Shown here in pieces: positions 2,352 through 14,137 of a stretch of 22,237 nucleotides of DNA. The stretch comes from a virus. The DNA lies in IMG/VR virus record IMGVR_UViG_3300035179_000068, positions 1-22,237 of that record; one strand, given 5' to 3'. The notes below the pieces were generated by a model that searched no databases, was not told the DNA's origin, and saw only the letters and a list, made by a program, of their open reading frames with translations. The position numbers and the translations under genes were made by a program. The number at the start of each line of letters is the position of its first letter. The stretch's first letter is position 1.

Positions 2352-2788
2352 CACACTCTCCCGAGTTTCCGGTAGCGCAATTCCTTCAGCCGCTCGCCGG
2401 GAATCTGGATGCGTTGCCCACATTTCGGGCAGGCGACCAGGAAAATGTCATCTCTGTTGACCGCCGCACGGTCATATTCCTCCTTCAGCCGGATCACGTC
2501 CGAGCCTTCGATGATCTCCGACGGCTGCTTGCGGGCGACGATTCGCATGATCTCTCCACAGCCGGGGCGGTCGCAGGGGAAGGCCTCGGGTCCGCCACCG
2601 AGCCCCTTGGCTTGGTCCGGCGGTGCGTCCGGGCGCTCCGAGTAGTCCCACTTGATGTATTGCCAACCTGCGGAGGGTTCTCCGTAGTCGGGCTCGTGGC
2701 CAGGTCTCCACCTGAAAGTTCGGCGGATGGCGCGGGGATCGATCTGATCCCTCTTCTTATCTGGACGACGTTCTTCTATCTTTCCCAC
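2351..2788 (-). CDS. Zinc-ribbon hypothetical protein (145 aa)
   Basis: Translation begins with GTG at 2788, with AGGAA about seven bases upstream. The protein contains two Cys pairs: PCDRPGCG at about residues 71-78 and ACPKCG near 119-124, separated by a charged helix. Together they can form one four-cysteine zinc ribbon. The C-terminus is basic (RLKELRYRKLGRV), which would suit nucleic-acid binding. Its start overlaps the end of the LAGLIDADG endonuclease gene by 13 bases, and its stop overlaps the next ATG as ATGA. The pattern is common in small phage regulators and structural accessory proteins; no specific function can be given. Confidence 0.7.
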   Translation of the reverse strand: MGKIEERRPDKKRDQIDPRAIRRTFRWRPGHEPDYGEPSAGWQYIKWDYSERPDAPPDQAKGLGGGPEAFPCDRPGCGEIMRIVARKQPSEIIEGSDVIRLKEEYDRAAVNRDDIFLVACPKCGQRIQIPGERLKELRYRKLGRV

Positions 2789-3363
2789 GGCGATGTTCCT
2801 AGAATCTGCAAGGCGGCCTCTGCACGCTCCCGTTTTCCTGTTAGAAACGGCATTATTTGAGGCAGGAATGCTCTAAGAGATGCTTGGCGCTGGACTTGCC
2901 AACACCATGCAGCCTGATGCCGCGGTGTTGCTCGGCGTGCCAAACAGACAGAGCCGGTTCCGGTTAGACGAAGGAGTGTTGCAATGGTTTCAATTTCCGT
3001 ATTCGTAACGGCAACGCCTATTCGGATGAGGCGCCCGCCCAGATGCGCCCTCCGATAATGGCGGCGATAAGGATCTCGTTCCCATATACCAATGGTTCCC
3101 TCGCCTTCTATCATTGCCCCAACCCAAGCCGCCTCGACCGGCGTGAGCTGTTTCCCTTGCGCCGCTTGGATATTGGCGCAATGTTGGCACCGGTGTAGTT
3201 CTGCTCGACGATAGTGCCGGGGATGTCCGCATTGTAGACAGTAGTAGGACTCTCTGCGGCCGGTGCCCCTTGGGAGGGCCTTCCGTCCACGACGGTCGCC
3301 TCCAGCCGGATCGCCGCCAGGGGCTCCGCCAGTGTCGCCAGTGGTCTCAGGTCGTTTAGCCAT
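2776..3363 (-). CDS. LAGLIDADG-family homing endonuclease with zinc-finger N-terminus
   Basis: The motif AAWVGAMIEGEGTIGIW (about residues 83-99) is a clear LAGLIDADG helix with its acidic metal-binding residue. It is followed by basic strands (YRRHYRRAHLGG) and an IGVAVTNTE segment typical of the DNA-binding saddle. Upstream, CLQC...CQHC (about residues 42-62) forms a probable zinc finger. Free-standing proteins of this type cut a specific DNA site and spread their own gene. With one LAGLIDADG motif it would act as a homodimer. The 5' end overlaps the 3' end of the PolA-like gene by 253 bases in a different frame, which is unusual. The start at ATG 3363 is uncertain; any start upstream of the zinc finger would keep the recognisable domains. 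Confidence 0.8.
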   Translation of the reverse strand: MAKRPETTGDTGGAPGGDPAGGDRRGRKALPRGTGRRESYYCLQCGHPRHYRRAELHRCQHCANIQAAQGKQLTPVEAAWVGAMIEGEGTIGIWERDPYRRHYRRAHLGGRLIRIGVAVTNTEIETIATLLRLTGTGSVCLARRATPRHQAAWCWQVQRQASLRAFLPQIMPFLTGKRERAEAALQILGTSPWER

Positions 3364-5240
3364 TGTTCGTGTTCCTCAGTGTTTCTTGACCCTGTGCCCA
3401 ACACCCGTGCTACCGAAGATAAAGGGTTACTGTCTACTCCCTTTATCATTATGGCAGGGGAGGGCCGGTTATTGTGGAATGTGACGGCGGCCACCTCCAA
3501 AAGGTCCTGAACAGTGCCCAGGATGGTGAAGGCGCTGGCGGCGCCAGGGTGTCGGCCGCCGCGAAACTTACGTCCGTACAGGGTCCGGGCCAGCCTGTCC
3601 CTCTGGTAGGAGCCCATCAACTGTGTGATCCCCAGCCATAAGCTAGGCATCCGCTTGTTCCACAGGTCGCCAACCTCGGGCAGGTTGTCCGGCAGACGAT
3701 CCACCAGCGTCGGCGCCGTGTCCGCCATCACGTCTATAGAGCGGCCGCAGATGTGCCACACTAGGACAGCCCTTGTCGTCTCTGTGCCCAACTCGAACAT
3801 CCGAGAGAGGCCCATCACCGGATCCTCGCCGGAGTTGAAGAGCCAGGAGAGCGTCGGGTCGCCGGTGTAGTGGAGCAAGGATCTTAGCCAGAGATCGGAA
3901 TATGAAACCCACCAATCGGCCGGGGCCTCCAGCCCGAACAGACGCCATTCGGCCCGGATACGAGCCAACGGCACCGAGACCGCGAAGTAAAACTTTGGGC
4001 AGTTGTGGACTACGAACCCCTCGGCTATGAAAGTTCCCGTACTGGTTGTGACATCCACCACAGTACGAACCCCTATCGGACGGCTTTGTACCAGCCGGGT
4101 CGGTGTAGTGCGACATTGCTGCGACCGCTCGTGAAATAGAGAAGCCGCTTTATGCAAGAGGCGGGGCGGGCGGATGCTTCCTAGCAGACGCAGAAGTTCT
4201 CCCCAACCCCCCTGAATCTGCAAGCGAGCACAGCGGTCTCGGGGTGTGATGTCGCGGAAATGGAACTGTCGGAGGGCGAGGGCGGCCCCTATCCGACGTA
4301 AAGTAGCACCGCGATTCTGCGCTATGCCTATTCTCCAGCCATTGCTAGTATTTCTTCCCCGCTTCTTTCCTGTGGAGGGTAGCGGGGTTGCCGCACAGAT
4401 ATGGCCTTCTCCATCGAAAAGTCCGGCCAACCACCCCGCCTCCCAAGAATCGTCATCCTCCCAAACAGATAAGGCTTTAGCAAGGCGCCCTCCGTGACGA
4501 TCAACAATATCGAGCGATCGCCAAGTCCGATTGAAACTATGGGGGCTATAGGCTAAAACCGGATGGTCGGGGGTTGCTTGAAAAGAAGTACCGTCCTCGC
4601 AGGTATACTCTCTGACCTCAGCTTGGGAGGTTTGTACATGCAGCACCGTAGCTGTCTGCCATTGCCGTTGCTGATTAAACCGCGGAGATTCCTCTTCGCA
4701 AGTCAATAACTCATCGCCCACCTTAATTTCTCCAAGGGGCACCCAGCGAAGATCGACCGTGAGTATGCGCGTCTCAGGAACAAAGCACTCCCACTGATAT
4801 TGCGGTTCAAGCAGGCGGGCGGTGTAGGCCTGATCCGGCAGGGGGAGGCCCCTCGGTGGTGCAGGATGATCGGCAGTGTGAATGCAGGCGCGGAGGTCGC
4901 CCAACATACAGGCCGCCAGCCTGGAGAAGAACTCGCCGAGCGGGTAATGCGGGGCTAGGGTGTTGGCCAGCCGGACTAGGGTTTCCTCGGCGTCTATCGC
5001 CACCAGCCGGGGCGGCGCTGCGCCCATGATGGCCGCCGCGAGTGCGGCCCGCGAGAAGAAGCCGTCATCGTCCAGCCCGATGAGGTAGACCTGCTCCCCC
5101 TGGGCTAGGGCGATTTGTTCGTCGTCTATAGCTACGCCGACAGGATCCGCATCGTCGCCACCGACCTCCTGGAGCCAAGCCATCAGGACGCGGGTGCCTT
5201 TCGTACTGTCGGCCAGGTGTGTCGTGTATGGTCGGGTCAT
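3111..5240 (-). CDS. Degenerate family A DNA polymerase-like protein interrupted by an intein
   Basis: The 709-residue precursor contains an intein at residues 152-413; the joined extein would be 447 residues. Read across the splice junction, TARLLEPQYQW-E-CPK aligns with TSRLSSAEPNMQN-IPK of the intact polymerase in this window. RIR...APADWWVSYSDLWLR (427-453) aligns with the motif A region, followed by LLHYTGDPTL, LARTLYGRKF (551-560), TILGTVQDLLEVAA and a possible motif C remnant IKGVDS (599-604). However, the motif A aspartate position is Ser446, and the O-helix Arg/Lys/Tyr pattern is lost in TTRAVLVWHICGR. Residues 35-125 weakly resemble a 3'-5' exonuclease fold without its acidic residues, and almost no thumb separates it from the palm. 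A dead polymerase paralogue or accessory subunit is my inference. The start overlap (ATGA at 5237-5240) supports the N-terminus. Confidence 0.62.
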   Translation of the reverse strand: MTRPYTTHLADSTKGTRVLMAWLQEVGGDDADPVGVAIDDEQIALAQGEQVYLIGLDDDGFFSRAALAAAIMGAAPPRLVAIDAEETLVRLANTLAPHYPLGEFFSRLAACMLGDLRACIHTADHPAPPRGLPLPDQAYTARLLEPQYQWECFVPETRILTVDLRWVPLGEIKVGDELLTCEEESPRFNQQRQWQTATVLHVQTSQAEVREYTCEDGTSFQATPDHPVLAYSPHSFNRTWRSLDIVDRHGGRLAKALSVWEDDDSWEAGWLAGLFDGEGHICAATPLPSTGKKRGRNTSNGWRIGIAQNRGATLRRIGAALALRQFHFRDITPRDRCARLQIQGGWGELLRLLGSIRPPRLLHKAASLFHERSQQCRTTPTRLVQSRPIGVRTVVDVTTSTGTFIAEGFVVHNCPKFYFAVSVPLARIRAEWRLFGLEAPADWWVSYSDLWLRSLLHYTGDPTLSWLFNSGEDPVMGLSRMFELGTETTRAVLVWHICGRSIDVMADTAPTLVDRLPDNLPEVGDLWNKRMPSLWLGITQLMGSYQRDRLARTLYGRKFRGGRHPGAASAFTILGTVQDLLEVAAVTFHNNRPSPAIMIKGVDSNPLSSVARVLGTGSRNTEEHEQWLNDLRPLATLAEPLAAIRLEATVVDGRPSQGAPAAESPTTVYNADIPGTIVEQNYTGANIAPISKRRKGNSSRRSRRLGLGQ
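4002..4787 (-). other. Intein with LAGLIDADG endonuclease domain, within the PolA-like gene
   Basis: The encoded segment of 262 residues starts with Cys152 (CFVPETRILT, block A; then VPLGEIKVGDEL) and ends with VVHN followed by Cys414 (block G, HN|C). Block B is present as GTSFQATPDHPVL with the conserved TxxH. Block F is RTVVDVTTSTGTFIAEGF. Between them is a LAGLIDADG motif, SWEAGWLAGLFDGEGHI (about residues 265-281). These features indicate a canonical class 1 intein that should excise itself and join Glu151 to Cys414. Only one LAGLIDADG motif is clear; a second, degenerate one may lie near GGWGELLRLLGSI. All splice-site residues (Cys1, block B His, penultimate His, terminal Asn, +1 Cys) are intact, so splicing competence is expected. 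Confidence 0.93.
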
Positions 5241-5712: not shown

Positions 5713-6292
5713 TGATCCCCCTCTCCCGTAGGCGGGCCAGTACAGCCTCCGGCACGTACATCCCGGCCTTGTAGGCGGTCAGGGCGAGGATCTCATCCCC
5801 GGTCAACTGGACATTGAGCATCGTGCCCTTGATCTCCTTGGTCTCCTGGAGTAGCTTGGCTACCTTCAGGATGGTCTCGGCCGCCCGCATTCGGATTCTC
5901 CAGTCCGGGCGGGAGGTGTCGAGGTCAAACTTCTCTTTGCAGTGGGGGCACTGCACATTTACCTTCAAGAGGCGGATGGCCTCCAGCGCATCTTCGTACA
6001 GGCCCGCCGCCTTGGCCGCCAGGAGGTGCATCTCCTTCTTGCTCACCTCCAGGTCTTCGGGACCGAAGAGATCGTCGTAGGCGTCCTTGAAGGCGGAATC
6101 CTCCCGAAGCCACCGGCGGATCCGGTGCTCCTTGAAGTCCAGGGCCTTGCAGGCTTTCCTGAAGCTGCCCTGGATGACCAACTCCTGGAGGAACCGGCGC
6201 TGTTCGAGCATGAGCCCCTGCCCATCGCGGTGGATAGGCGAGCCCCCAGAGGGTTCCTCTGCCGGCACCAGGGCCTTGTCGTCGTCGGTCAT
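5705..6292 (-). CDS. HTH protein with zinc ribbon; candidate small terminase subunit
   Basis: The ATG at 6292 overlaps the upstream stop as ATGA, giving 195 residues; the much longer frame to 6904 is a read through the upstream gene on the same strand and is rejected. Residues about 30-75 (LEQRRFLQELVIQGSFRKA, then DFKEHRIRRWLRED and FKDAYDDLF) match the helix-turn-helix seen in phage small terminase subunits of the phBC6A51 type and in related phage HTH proteins. A CPHCKEKF pair near residues 120-130 is only half of a standard zinc ribbon. The C-terminus is helical (ALTAYKAGMYVPEAVLARLRERG). Small terminases recognise the packaging site on phage DNA. No large terminase is in the window, so a different DNA-binding role remains possible. 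Confidence 0.55.
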   Translation of the reverse strand: MTDDDKALVPAEEPSGGSPIHRDGQGLMLEQRRFLQELVIQGSFRKACKALDFKEHRIRRWLREDSAFKDAYDDLFGPEDLEVSKKEMHLLAAKAAGLYEDALEAIRLLKVNVQCPHCKEKFDLDTSRPDWRIRMRAAETILKVAKLLQETKEIKGTMLNVQLTGDEILALTAYKAGMYVPEAVLARLRERGIIV

Positions 6293-7179
6293 AAAGTTGG
6301 CCTCGTTCCTAGGAAGGCGGCCGCGACGTTCACGACCTGCTGCAAGGAGTCGGGCTGGAAGGCCATTAGCTTGCCTGCCAGATCCATGTAGGCCTTTCGT
6401 AGCTCCAACTCGGTTGCTGTTGTCAGGGGCGGCGCGGAGCAGGCAGCCACTACCTTGCAGACCTCCTCCCACTCGGCGTCGGTGGCATGGTGGATGGTAT
6501 AGAATTGGAAACCCTGTATGAGGCCACCGTAGACTTTCAACAACTCGGCCTGTCGGCTGATACCGAATGGCCCCATCGCATGGATCTGGCCCGAACCCTT
6601 GGGGTACTCCCAGGAGTAGGATTGAAGCGTTGGGAAGACCGGCAGGTGCCGGAAGTCCTTGTTCCAGAGACAGTCGGCGATGCCCTCCTCGATGTAGCCG
6701 CCGGGCTGAGAGGGGCGGAAGGCTCCGGGGTATATCATCGGCATGATGCCGTTGCACCTCTCCAACATGACCTGCTGGTAGGGGTGGCTGAGGCGGTCGC
6801 CGCGGGTGTCGATGGAGGCATAGAGCGGTGCTCCAGAGTGGCGGATGCGGAATGTGTCGATGAGGCGCTCCATCGCCGGGCCGGTTGCCGTGGCTGGACC
6901 CCAACCACCGCCCTCTTCGGCGTTGATGACGGCAAAACAGGCGCCCGCATCTACGGCGTCGGCCAACTTGTTGCCCTCACTAATAGGGCTGTCGGCGTAG
7001 GCGAACCGCTCCGTGGCCCACCGGATGCCGGCAGCGGCGTAGGCTTTCTCCGCTTCTGGCAACCCATATTTGACGATGACGCCCTCCAACTTGGCACGTT
7101 GTGCGCGCTCGACGCACTTGGCCAGAGGTAGGGTGTTGTACTGGTTGTGCCAGGCCCAGATGCCTGCTGCGGTGGTCAT
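6289..7179 (-). CDS. TIM-barrel glycosidase-like protein, possible endolysin
   Basis: The 296-residue protein begins AAGIWAWHNQYN and alternates short hydrophobic strands with helices: GVIVKYG (strand 2), AGIRWATERFAYAD, ACFAVINAEEG (strand 4, with adjacent acidic residues), PLYASIDTRGD, GIMPMIYPGAF, PVFPTLQSYS and GFQFYTIHHAT. This is the rhythm of a beta/alpha barrel and resembles GH25-like lysozymes and related phage lysins, where a Glu/Asp pair at the strand 4 end is catalytic (here the INAEE segment near residue 90). A cell-wall lytic role is inferred and not proved; other barrel hydrolases are possible. There is no signal peptide. An AAAGGAG ribosome binding site precedes ATG 7179. Confidence 0.5.
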   Translation of the reverse strand: MTTAAGIWAWHNQYNTLPLAKCVERAQRAKLEGVIVKYGLPEAEKAYAAAGIRWATERFAYADSPISEGNKLADAVDAGACFAVINAEEGGGWGPATATGPAMERLIDTFRIRHSGAPLYASIDTRGDRLSHPYQQVMLERCNGIMPMIYPGAFRPSQPGGYIEEGIADCLWNKDFRHLPVFPTLQSYSWEYPKGSGQIHAMGPFGISRQAELLKVYGGLIQGFQFYTIHHATDAEWEEVCKVVAACSAPPLTTATELELRKAYMDLAGKLMAFQPDSLQQVVNVAAAFLGTRPTL

Positions 7180-11219: not shown

Positions 11220-13886
11220 TCACACTTCGAGTATATCTCCCTTAGCCATCAACTTGACAAGGGGATCGCCCCATGTCTTCCCGAACTCGATGTCCACCGG
11301 AATCTGCCAGCCGAGCCGGCTCCCGTCCGGTAGGATGAGGTTCTTAGCCGTCTCTTCCCACAACTCCTTGATGATCCGCGCCGTCTGTTCTGCATAGGCG
11401 TTGTCCGGCCAGTAGAACTCGAAGGTGATGGAGTCGTGGACTGAGATCACCGGATAGCATTGCCGCTTCCGCAGGGCGGGATGAAACTCGGAAAGCCGGT
11501 GCGCGGCGCTATGGAGCGTCGAGCACCCTGACTGGATTGGGTAGTTGATGCCTTCTCGGATTAGTCCCTCCAAATCGTTGTACCGGCGCACGGCCTTGAG
11601 TAGGGCAGCCGGCGGGAAGTGGCGGCGCTGGCCAAAGATGTTCTCCCGATACCCCCGCTCTATCACGTCTCGCCGGGCCTGGCTGAAGAACGTGGGCAGG
11701 GAGGCCACGACACGCATGTACCGAGCCCTGACCTCGCCCGCCTCTTCCACAGAGCAGTTAAGGCGCTCGGCGATGCCTTCGTCAGTGAGACCGTAGCCAA
11801 TGCCAAACACCAGGGTCTTGCCGGCCCGCCGAAGGTCGGCATGGATGTCCCGCCACTCCATGTCACTCAACTCGGGATCGATGGGCCAGACGCCACGGGC
11901 GATGTAGGTATGGACATCCCGCCCAGCCATTAGCACCTGGAGTAAGGCCTCGTCGCCAGCCATATAGGCCAACCCCCACACTTCCGCCTGGCCCCAGTCC
12001 GCCGTCATCAGGCCGAAACCTGCTGGGGCTGTGAACATCCGGCGGAATGCGTCCTGGGTCTTCAGTTCTGGGATCACCACATCCTTGGGGATGTTCTGCA
12101 TATTCGGCTCGGCGGAGCTGAGGCGGGATGTTTCGGCACCCCCCACCCGGTACTGGGATCGGATGCGCCCATCGGCCTCGATGTGCCGGAGGAATCCTCC
12201 ACGGCCCCCGTCGAGATAGGTGCCCTGGGCCTTCCGCAACTCCTTCAACTCCAACAGGATGGGGATGATGGGGTGGTCGCTCTGGCTCTGGATGGCCTGG
12301 AGGGCGTCGTGTCCGGTCTGCTCATGTTCAAAACACAGGCCAGCGTCGCAGGCCTCACAGCCACGTCCGCTGTCGGTCTTGTAGCCGCTGCTGGGCAGTT
12401 TCAACTCAGAGAAGAGAACCCGCTGGAGACTCTTGTAGTCCAGGTACTTCCAACCGGGTTTGGTCTCGGGGAGAGGTACGGCCCAGAGCCGCTCCTCTGC
12501 ATCCGCCACACGCTGGGCGTAGTGGGCACAGAGTTTGTTGAAGTAGTCCATGTCCACCAGGACGCCGCGCTTCTCCATCTCCCAACAGCACCGCACGAGG
12601 GGCTGAATGATCTGTTCGGATGCCCAGAGTGTGCCTTCTTTCCTTGCCTTCTCCCGCAGCGGTGGGGCGATACGCAGTACGGCATCGGCGTCGGCGGCGC
12701 TGTACTTCCAGAGGAGTTCATCGGGTGCCTCTGTCATCTTGCGCTTGTTGGACGTGACCTGGGTGATCTCCTCCTCGTAGTAGGGCAGGTCGCTGTAGAT
12801 GGCAGTGAGGATCGCAAGACTGCTGCGTTTGGTGCGCCGGGCCTCGGGCGGCATGGCCGCCTCAGCGACTGCATGGTGCAAGAGCATCGTGTCCTCTAGG
12901 ACGCCGTTGACCTCAAAGCCGAATGCCGTGGCTGCGGACACAAACGGCCAGTCCGGCCTTCTCTCTAGGAATCTCAAATCAAAGCTGACGTTCTGCCCCA
13001 CCTTCTTCGTCTCGCTGGCGAAGATCTCCCGCAGGAGCCGGAGTACCTCCGGCCATTCCTCTTCGGTCCAGTGGGAATCCACCGCCCAGGGCGGTGCCGT
13101 CTTGCGCCCCTTCGGGATCTCGGGCTGGGGCACGTTCTTGTGCGAGAGCAGCGGCACCACGAACCCCTCGCCAGCCTCCGTGGAGAAGCTGATGCAGAGA
13201 AGCTCGTCCTTCCGCCAGTCTAGGCCCATGGTCTCGGTGTCGAAGGCCAGCTCTTTCGTATCCGAATGGAGCAGGTAATCGTGGAGAACGTGGAGCTGGG
13301 CCAGGTCGGTGACGGCGAGGTACTCACCAAGGCGGGGCTGACCCAGCTCTCCGTTCGCAATACGAAGGGCCTTCTCGAAATGCTCCTTGACCACATCGGC
13401 GACCTGCCACTGGCCGCGGAGTAGGAAGGCCGGATGATAGCTAGGTATGAGTGGGATGCCGGTTTCTGGTTGAGTGAGGGTCTGGCCGAGGACGGAACCC
13501 AATGTGGTTGCCCGTCCGTAGGCAGCCTGGAGGGCCACATCTCCCAGTGTGACGATGACCAGCGGGGCCACCGTCTGGATCTCCTCAATGAGATAGGGGC
13601 GGCAGTGTCGCATCTCCTCGATCTTCGGGCGCCGGTTGCCGGGCGGGTGGCAACGGATGGCGTTGGCTAGGTAGATGTCCGCAGGCCGAACCCCTGCCAT
13701 CTCGCAGAGAAGGCGTAGGAGCTGGCCGCTCGGGCCGCAGAACGCCTTGCCCTGGCGGTTCTCCTCTTCTCCCGGGGCCAACCCAATGAGCATGATGAAC
13801 CCCGGGGACCCGCGGCCGTTGACTACCCGCGAGCGGCTACGGACGAGGAGGGGACAGAGGTTGCAGTCTGGAGGGGCACCAGGCAT
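11220..13886 (-). CDS. Uracil-DNA glycosylase (family 4) fused to family A DNA polymerase with 3'-5' exonuclease
   Basis: The N-terminal 160 residues are a family-4 UDG. Cys8, Cys11, Cys79 and Cys95 are spaced as iron-sulfur ligands, GLAPGEEENRQGKAFCGPSG holds the catalytic region, and SYHPAFLLR is the HPAxLLR-type motif. Residues about 190-420 are the 3'-5' exonuclease with FDTET, GQNVSFD and the YSAADAD segment. The polymerase domain follows: SRLSSAEPNMQNIP, motif A TADWGQAEVW (Asp630), motif B RRAGKTLVFGIGYG (Arg686, Lys690, Phe694, Tyr698) and motif C SVHDS (Asp818). All catalytic residues are present. Phe sits at the E. coli Phe762 position. The start ATG 13886 overlaps the upstream TGA as ATGA; a GTG one codon earlier is less likely. 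It is the probable replicative polymerase, able to couple uracil removal with synthesis. Confidence 0.95.
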   Translation of the reverse strand: MPGAPPDCNLCPLLVRSRSRVVNGRGSPGFIMLIGLAPGEEENRQGKAFCGPSGQLLRLLCEMAGVRPADIYLANAIRCHPPGNRRPKIEEMRHCRPYLIEEIQTVAPLVIVTLGDVALQAAYGRATTLGSVLGQTLTQPETGIPLIPSYHPAFLLRGQWQVADVVKEHFEKALRIANGELGQPRLGEYLAVTDLAQLHVLHDYLLHSDTKELAFDTETMGLDWRKDELLCISFSTEAGEGFVVPLLSHKNVPQPEIPKGRKTAPPWAVDSHWTEEEWPEVLRLLREIFASETKKVGQNVSFDLRFLERRPDWPFVSAATAFGFEVNGVLEDTMLLHHAVAEAAMPPEARRTKRSSLAILTAIYSDLPYYEEEITQVTSNKRKMTEAPDELLWKYSAADADAVLRIAPPLREKARKEGTLWASEQIIQPLVRCCWEMEKRGVLVDMDYFNKLCAHYAQRVADAEERLWAVPLPETKPGWKYLDYKSLQRVLFSELKLPSSGYKTDSGRGCEACDAGLCFEHEQTGHDALQAIQSQSDHPIIPILLELKELRKAQGTYLDGGRGGFLRHIEADGRIRSQYRVGGAETSRLSSAEPNMQNIPKDVVIPELKTQDAFRRMFTAPAGFGLMTADWGQAEVWGLAYMAGDEALLQVLMAGRDVHTYIARGVWPIDPELSDMEWRDIHADLRRAGKTLVFGIGYGLTDEGIAERLNCSVEEAGEVRARYMRVVASLPTFFSQARRDVIERGYRENIFGQRRHFPPAALLKAVRRYNDLEGLIREGINYPIQSGCSTLHSAAHRLSEFHPALRKRQCYPVISVHDSITFEFYWPDNAYAEQTARIIKELWEETAKNLILPDGSRLGWQIPVDIEFGKTWGDPLVKLMAKGDILEV

Positions 13887-14137
13887 CACTCACCTGTCTC
13901 CTCAATGTGCATCCCGAACCGCGCAAACGGGTTCGGTTGCGGGGTGGGATCGATGGCCCCGCTCACCCAAGTCTCGCGGGCGAGGGGACACAGGTTGTCC
14001 CGTTCGACCTTGCAGTTGCGGCAGACCTGATGGGTCAACTCGTAGATCCCCGTCTCGTCCGGTATCGACACGTGGCGGGGCTTGCCGATAAGCCAGCGAT
14101 GCGGCCTACCGTTAGGGCAGCGGTGGCCGTTTACCAT
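13886..14137 (-). CDS. Cys-rich small protein (83 aa), probable zinc-binding
   Basis: The ATG at 14137 follows the upstream TAA by one base (TAACATG); a longer start at 14167 would overlap the upstream gene. The protein carries GHRCPNGRPHRW, HQVCRNCKVERDNLCPLA, giving four Cys and several His in a compact zinc-ribbon-like layout. The C-terminus is Pro-rich and acidic. Its TGA overlaps the start of the polymerase gene as ATGA, so it should be co-translated with the polymerase. It may be a small DNA- or polymerase-associated zinc protein; this rests on position and Cys pattern only. Confidence 0.65.
   Translation of the reverse strand: MVNGHRCPNGRPHRWLIGKPRHVSIPDETGIYELTHQVCRNCKVERDNLCPLARETWVSGAIDPTPQPNPFARFGMHIEETGE

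Follow-up and report, generated by a model that had tools for sequence, protein, structure and literature searches.

Inactivated polymerase modules are important in DNA polymerase epsilon and in Y-family mutasomes. A family A counterpart of such proteins, above all in phages, appears to be undescribed. Among B-family enzymes, the C-terminal module of eukaryotic Pol epsilon and an inactivated archaeal PolB have lost activity, and a role in assembly or structure has been proposed for these modules (PMC2669801). ImuB and other inactivated Y-family proteins are proposed, in the available part of a bacterial survey, to be accessory components of polymerase complexes, often together with RecA (PMC12926913). 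For family A, the same part of that survey lists exonuclease domains that are inactive (PolA2/APEX) and mentions no inactive A-family polymerase (PMC12926913). A literature search that covered few subscription journals found no inactivated polymerase described in phages or elsewhere in family A.

Gene context, relatives and inserted elements

The DNA analysed here (the window) is the entire 22,237-base virus record IMGVR_UViG_3300035179_000068, a fragment of a tailed phage with nearly all of its genes on the minus strand. Among the encoded proteins are a primase and a DnaB-like helicase, a UDG–exonuclease–polymerase A protein (PolA), a gp32-like SSB, a UvsX-like recombinase, a RuvC-like resolvase and an exonuclease, together with a ClpP-like head protease, a small terminase and a DNA methyltransferase. 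A preliminary description had assigned to this DNA a probable catalytically dead PolA paralogue, interrupted by an intein, alongside an intact polymerase. The coordinates of the interrupted gene stand, with the minus strand now specified, as do the 447 residues of the spliced extein and the presence of a PolA with all motifs (Table 1). This PolA has an N-terminal domain of the uracil-DNA glycosylase superfamily (PF03167) fused on, and its motif C is HDS, not HDE, which is also the case in many phage polymerases.

Table 1. Coordinates of the pseudo-polymerase gene, its parts, its orthologues and the intact polymerase
Feature	Position	Strand	Remarks
Pseudo-polymerase precursor ORF	3111..5240	-	709 aa = extein 447 aa + intein 262 aa
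N-extein, residues 1-151	4788..5240	-	residues 140-151 = palm motif 1, TARLLEPQ.QWE
Intein, residues 152-413 (262 aa)	4002..4787	-	Cys1 ... His-Asn, Cys+1; LAGLIDADG motif WLAGLFDGEG
Motif A equivalent VSYSDLWLR	3882..3908	-	PolA ADYSQIELR; D705 to S446, E710 to W451, R712 retained
Post-motif A helix YTGDPTLSWLFNSGEDP	3819..3869	-	PolA-type SGDP.L..F.SGED
O-helix equivalent TRAVLVWHICG	3744..3776	-	F762 to V, Y766 to C498, G767 retained
ARTLYGRKF	3564..3590	-	PolA ETLxGRRR; HH alignment
Q-helix equivalent FTILGTVQDLLEVA	3489..3530	-	PolA N.P.QGTAADI...A; Q849 to L
Expected motif C region IMIKGVDSN	3426..3452	-	alignment of low confidence
LAGLIDADG homing-endonuclease ORF	2776-3363		phrog_5046
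Inserted element	2718..3288	-	~570 bp, approximate; no counterpart in L003/L004
Displaced native C-terminal tail SGGDLATSPTT...CESSPASSRRRSSKART	2494..2775	-	homologous to the P0003 tail up to the stop
Intact UDG–exonuclease–polymerase A (PolA)	11220..13889	-	motif A D, O-helix R/K/F/Y and motif C HDS all present
Orthologue P0003	L003:17151-18605		intein-free
Orthologue P0004	L004:18679-20091		intein-free

A scan of IMG/VR with the polymerase yielded four related contigs (G001–G004), two of which (G001, 56 kb; G002, 25 kb) carry intein-free orthologues of the extein that are 57% (P0003) and 56% (P0004) identical to it. Two more viral scans, a genome scan and a search of a phage collection returned the same two contigs or none, and the pseudo-polymerase group has three known members (the window protein, P0003 and P0004). 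No copy was seen on the other two related contigs, both of which may end too early; on G003, the 1.7 kb that follow the methyltransferase gene lack the pseudo-polymerase gene. Other genes, including a DnaJ-like ORF, occupy this site (L005:17462-19263), at which G002 has the pseudo-polymerase gene, so the presence of the gene may vary.

The order of genes around the pseudo-polymerase gene is similar in G001, G002 and the window. In all three phages it comes after the small terminase gene, either closely or with the methyltransferase gene in between, and in the window it is followed by small genes and then by the gene for the ClpP-like head maturation protease; its position, away from the PolA gene, has the small terminase gene on one side and late genes on the other. 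Identity with a large terminase was considered and rejected, since G004 has a large terminase gene elsewhere. The window also encodes a conserved 296-residue protein (6289-7179) that is 72-73% identical in G001 and G002 and matches no PHROG family. A further viral contig (L043) has two matches to the family A polymerase core (3652-4509 and 6123-6986) about 1.6 kb apart, representing either two polymerases or a single one split by an insertion.

The intein of the window gene interrupts the site that corresponds to 'PNLQNIP' in PolA. Its N-terminal splicing region is matched by TIGR01445 (27.2 bits; cut-off 24.5), and TIGR01443, the C-terminal model, is at its cut-off when the whole ORF is searched. 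Cys1, His-Asn and Cys+1 are all present, leaving the splice motifs intact, and exactly the intein residues are absent from both orthologues, in which the site reads E/A rather than E/C as in the window.

A second element lies at the 3′ end of the window gene. In DNA alignments, similarity to the orthologues breaks at ~3289 and restarts at ~2717, and the last ~50 residues of the pseudo-polymerase ORF are consequently encoded by the insert. The native C-terminal tail, which is basic and disordered, is displaced downstream, where it overlaps a zinc-ribbon ORF (2351-2788) in a different frame. A group I or group II intron around the homing endonuclease was rejected, as there is no Rfam match and ~570 bp leave scant space besides the ORF. 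Several LAGLIDADG endonucleases of one type (phrog_5046) occur at dispersed sites among these phages (window 4002-4787 and 2776-3363; L015:3095-3493; L004 from ~21241), and one in G004 is located directly 3′ of the large terminase gene. The intein and the free endonuclease ORF belong to the same PHROG, yet are barely alike in pairwise comparison.

Residue replacement, profile similarity and selection

Residue equivalents are given in Klenow numbering. D705, E710, K758, Q849, H881 and D882 are invariant in the 74 family A polymerases over which conservation was counted. In palm motif 1 of the pseudo-polymerase, R142 (R668) and Q149 (Q677) are retained. In motif A, the aspartate was said to be replaced by Ser446, and this is confirmed: the D705 position, invariant in the 74 polymerases, is occupied by S, S and T in the window protein and its orthologues, and E710 is replaced by W in all three, so that neither residue is kept in any member, and the triplet YSD is common to 3/3. 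Q849 is replaced by L, again in all three. The O-helix had been described as having lost its Arg, Lys and Tyr, which is correct for R754, which has no counterpart, and for Y766, which is Cys, but not for K758, which corresponds to R490 in the window and to K in both orthologues and is the sole residue of the set R754, K758, F762 and Y766 to be retained (as K/R). The IKGVDS segment offered as a possible motif C is not credible, as it reads RDIETD in the orthologues. The expected region contains no His-Asp pair and has S or T at the D882 position, with the exact alignment there being of low confidence. Given that D705, E710 and Q849 are replaced (D882 less certainly), the usual two-metal mechanism of DNA synthesis would not be expected to operate.

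Residues 1-135 of the N-extein have no assignable fold. The N-terminal 150 residues gave no PolA 3′-5′ exonuclease match when compared with 76 exonuclease domains, and an exonuclease remnant is not supported, the score being 11.4 and shuffled sequences reaching up to 20.3. The thumb also appears to have been lost, judging by length, as ~135 residues lie ahead of palm motif 1.

In direct HMM searches, the extein and its orthologues alone have no convincing match to Pfam, PHROG or NCBIfam models; the extein does not reach the PF00476 cut-off, and at a per-genome E ≤ 10 only the true PolA is found (5 genomes). The profile of the three orthologues gives P = 0.35 against the phages' own polymerases (n = 3), P = 0.01 against 14 polymerases, and P = 6e-5 with a score of 40.2 against a profile of 74 diverse phage and E. 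coli family A polymerases (HH-suite profile–profile comparison), significance thus rising as the polymerase profile deepens. Against the polymerase profile, the C-terminal part alone gives P = 2.8e-5 and single orthologues give P = 1e-5 to 2e-4 each. The aligned stretch is colinear; it begins at motif A, ends at the Q-helix and, under a looser setting, reaches back to palm motif 1. Compared with the real score of 40.2, the best of 300 shuffles scored 28.0, the reversed profile 15.0, and 14 further genes from these phages no more than 23.0. MAFFT, which is independent of the HH alignment, arrives at the same residue pairing. The alignment with the polymerase palm that had been made by eye is thereby reproduced by two programs and is above chance in the controls, and the profile–profile search suggested with it gives a significant match, though solely with the deep polymerase profile. 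With colinear palm and fingers motifs and significant profile similarity, the family A relationship of the pseudo-polymerase and the loss of its catalytic residues are supported.

In a tree of the pseudo-polymerases and PolA proteins, a joint clade with the PolAs of the same phages is not rejected (AU p = 0.57), and the pseudo-polymerase branch is very long (4.5 changes per site), too long for the tree to place the group; 'family A homologue' is a safer label than the earlier 'paralogue'. A tblastn match in MT835496 (E 0.09) falls in an undecaprenyl-diphosphatase-like ORF and is attributed to chance.

AlphaFold2 run on the three-sequence alignment gives a model with a pLDDT of 39.6, for which Foldseek returns no match. 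When 58 polymerase cores are added to the MSA, with the P0003 core as the target, the pLDDT is ~90 over residues 60-200 (mean 67.7), and all 50 PDB matches listed are family A polymerases, including Klenow, KlenTaq and Pol theta (best E 1.2e-5, TM ~0.5). Because this MSA consists mostly of polymerases, the guided model indicates that the fold can be fitted and is not independent proof of it.

Rates of substitution were estimated by the Nei-Gojobori method for the pairs G001/G002 and window/G001. The dN/dS of the polymerase-like part is 0.11 and 0.17, respectively, and that of the active PolA is 0.10 and 0.16 for the same pairs. Purifying selection acts on the polymerase-like part as strongly as on the active PolA, and the C-terminal tail is nearly unconstrained (dN/dS 0.82). 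The combination expected of a pseudo-enzyme, namely catalytic residues lost in the orthologues and a domain under purifying selection, is thus found.

Possible roles of the protein

The reading that we favour, with a probability of roughly 0.55, is that of a conserved, catalytically dead family A polymerase-like protein that acts as a non-catalytic partner. The protein would consist of an N-terminal part (~135 residues), a palm/fingers domain without a recognisable thumb, and a disordered basic tail, and in the window phage it would be made as an intein-bearing precursor with intact splice motifs. It would no longer copy DNA; instead, its basic tail and what it retains of the polymerase surface (equivalents of R668 and K/R758) may bind DNA or the replication machinery. 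Candidate partners encoded in the same gene block are PolA, UvsX, the gp32-like SSB, the helicase and the primase, and the protein could, for instance, provide a scaffold, or join the active polymerase as a subunit that loads substrate or regulates it. A non-catalytic accessory role in binding DNA or the replisome is probable, being the role most consistent with the retention of the polymerase core and some DNA-contact residues, the location at the end of the replication and recombination block, and the PolA-like constraint. Counting against this reading are the distance of the gene from PolA, the two related contigs on which no copy was seen (both may end too early), a group of three known members, the absence of a match to any library model by the protein alone and the poor unguided structure model. 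The fuller proposal is that a phage here has the first family A polymerase to be found catalytically inactivated, with little or no thumb, matured by splicing and working as a non-catalytic subunit of a family A replisome; this is tentative, and we consider it somewhat against the odds.

The main rival, because the small terminase gene adjoins, is that a polymerase-derived protein has been recruited to late functions, either in DNA packaging or as a minor head protein near the terminase and the protease. The small terminase gene precedes it in all three phages (closely or via the methyltransferase gene), the ClpP-like head maturation protease gene of the window lies downstream after the small genes, and a basic, disordered tail would suit such a role. 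However, the large terminase gene of G004 is located elsewhere, in a block together with the major head protein gene, and the head and tail genes of G001, including the protease gene, are on the opposite strand, which places the pseudo-polymerase gene at the end of the DNA-metabolism strand. A late function is considered unlikely.

Residual nucleotidyl transfer, or another activity, through a rearranged active site that uses, for example, the YSD aspartate of motif A would agree with the conservation of YSD in 3/3 members and with a domain constrained like an active enzyme. This aspartate is three residues off the catalytic position, however, and with the motif A aspartate, E710 and Q849 replaced and the motif C residues not conserved, such activity is quite improbable. 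A polymerase mimic acting as a decoy, titrating either a defence sensor or a polymerase partner of the host, would be a plausible use of a dead enzyme, and the surrounding region is variable and contains a methyltransferase and homing endonucleases; but no defence or counter-defence context was found, and strong purifying selection rather than rapid change is observed, making this role very doubtful. That an unrelated helical protein resembles polymerases by chance would account for the lack of a library match to the extein alone and for an unguided model without a polymerase fold; the lower scores of the shuffle, reversal and same-genome decoy controls and the colinearity of motifs in two aligners leave this with little likelihood. 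A decaying polymerase pseudogene struck by mobile elements (intein and homing endonuclease), as two endonuclease elements within a gene devoid of catalytic residues might suggest, is scarcely credible: the selection test, with a dN/dS of 0.11-0.17 for the polymerase-like part, contradicts it, and the frame that is open in three phages and the intact splice motifs of the intein speak against it.

Comparison with known polymerases and inteins

In family A polymerases (E. coli Pol I, T7 gp5 and phage PHROG 17), palm motif 1, motif A, the O-helix, GRR and the Q-helix follow one another in the same order and with the same spacing as here. The pseudo-polymerase differs from these enzymes in that D705, E710, Q849, R754 and Y766 are replaced and motif C is unconvincing, in that neither an exonuclease domain nor (by length) a thumb is detectable, and in scoring below every library threshold. 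Its intein resembles those of DNA polymerases (DnaE and archaeal Pol) in its location within a conserved polymerase motif, and DnaE inteins are the nearest to its N-terminal block among solved structures; whereas the host polymerases of those inteins are active, the host here is a dead polymerase. An intein in such a host is relevant to the proposal that location in active sites is what allows inteins to persist.

The inactivated B-family modules likewise have lost catalytic residues while being kept beside an active polymerase (PMC2669801), but they belong to another family and other organisms, and the pseudo-polymerase is encoded by a phage gene of its own that contains an intein. ImuB, as presented in the available part of the survey, is likewise a stand-alone dead polymerase homologue, but it is a cellular protein of the Y family and carries RecA and clamp motifs (PMC12926913). 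Phage replisomes are small enough to be rebuilt in the tube, and the pseudo-polymerase, if confirmed, would provide a tractable system for what a polymerase fold gives to replication without catalysis.
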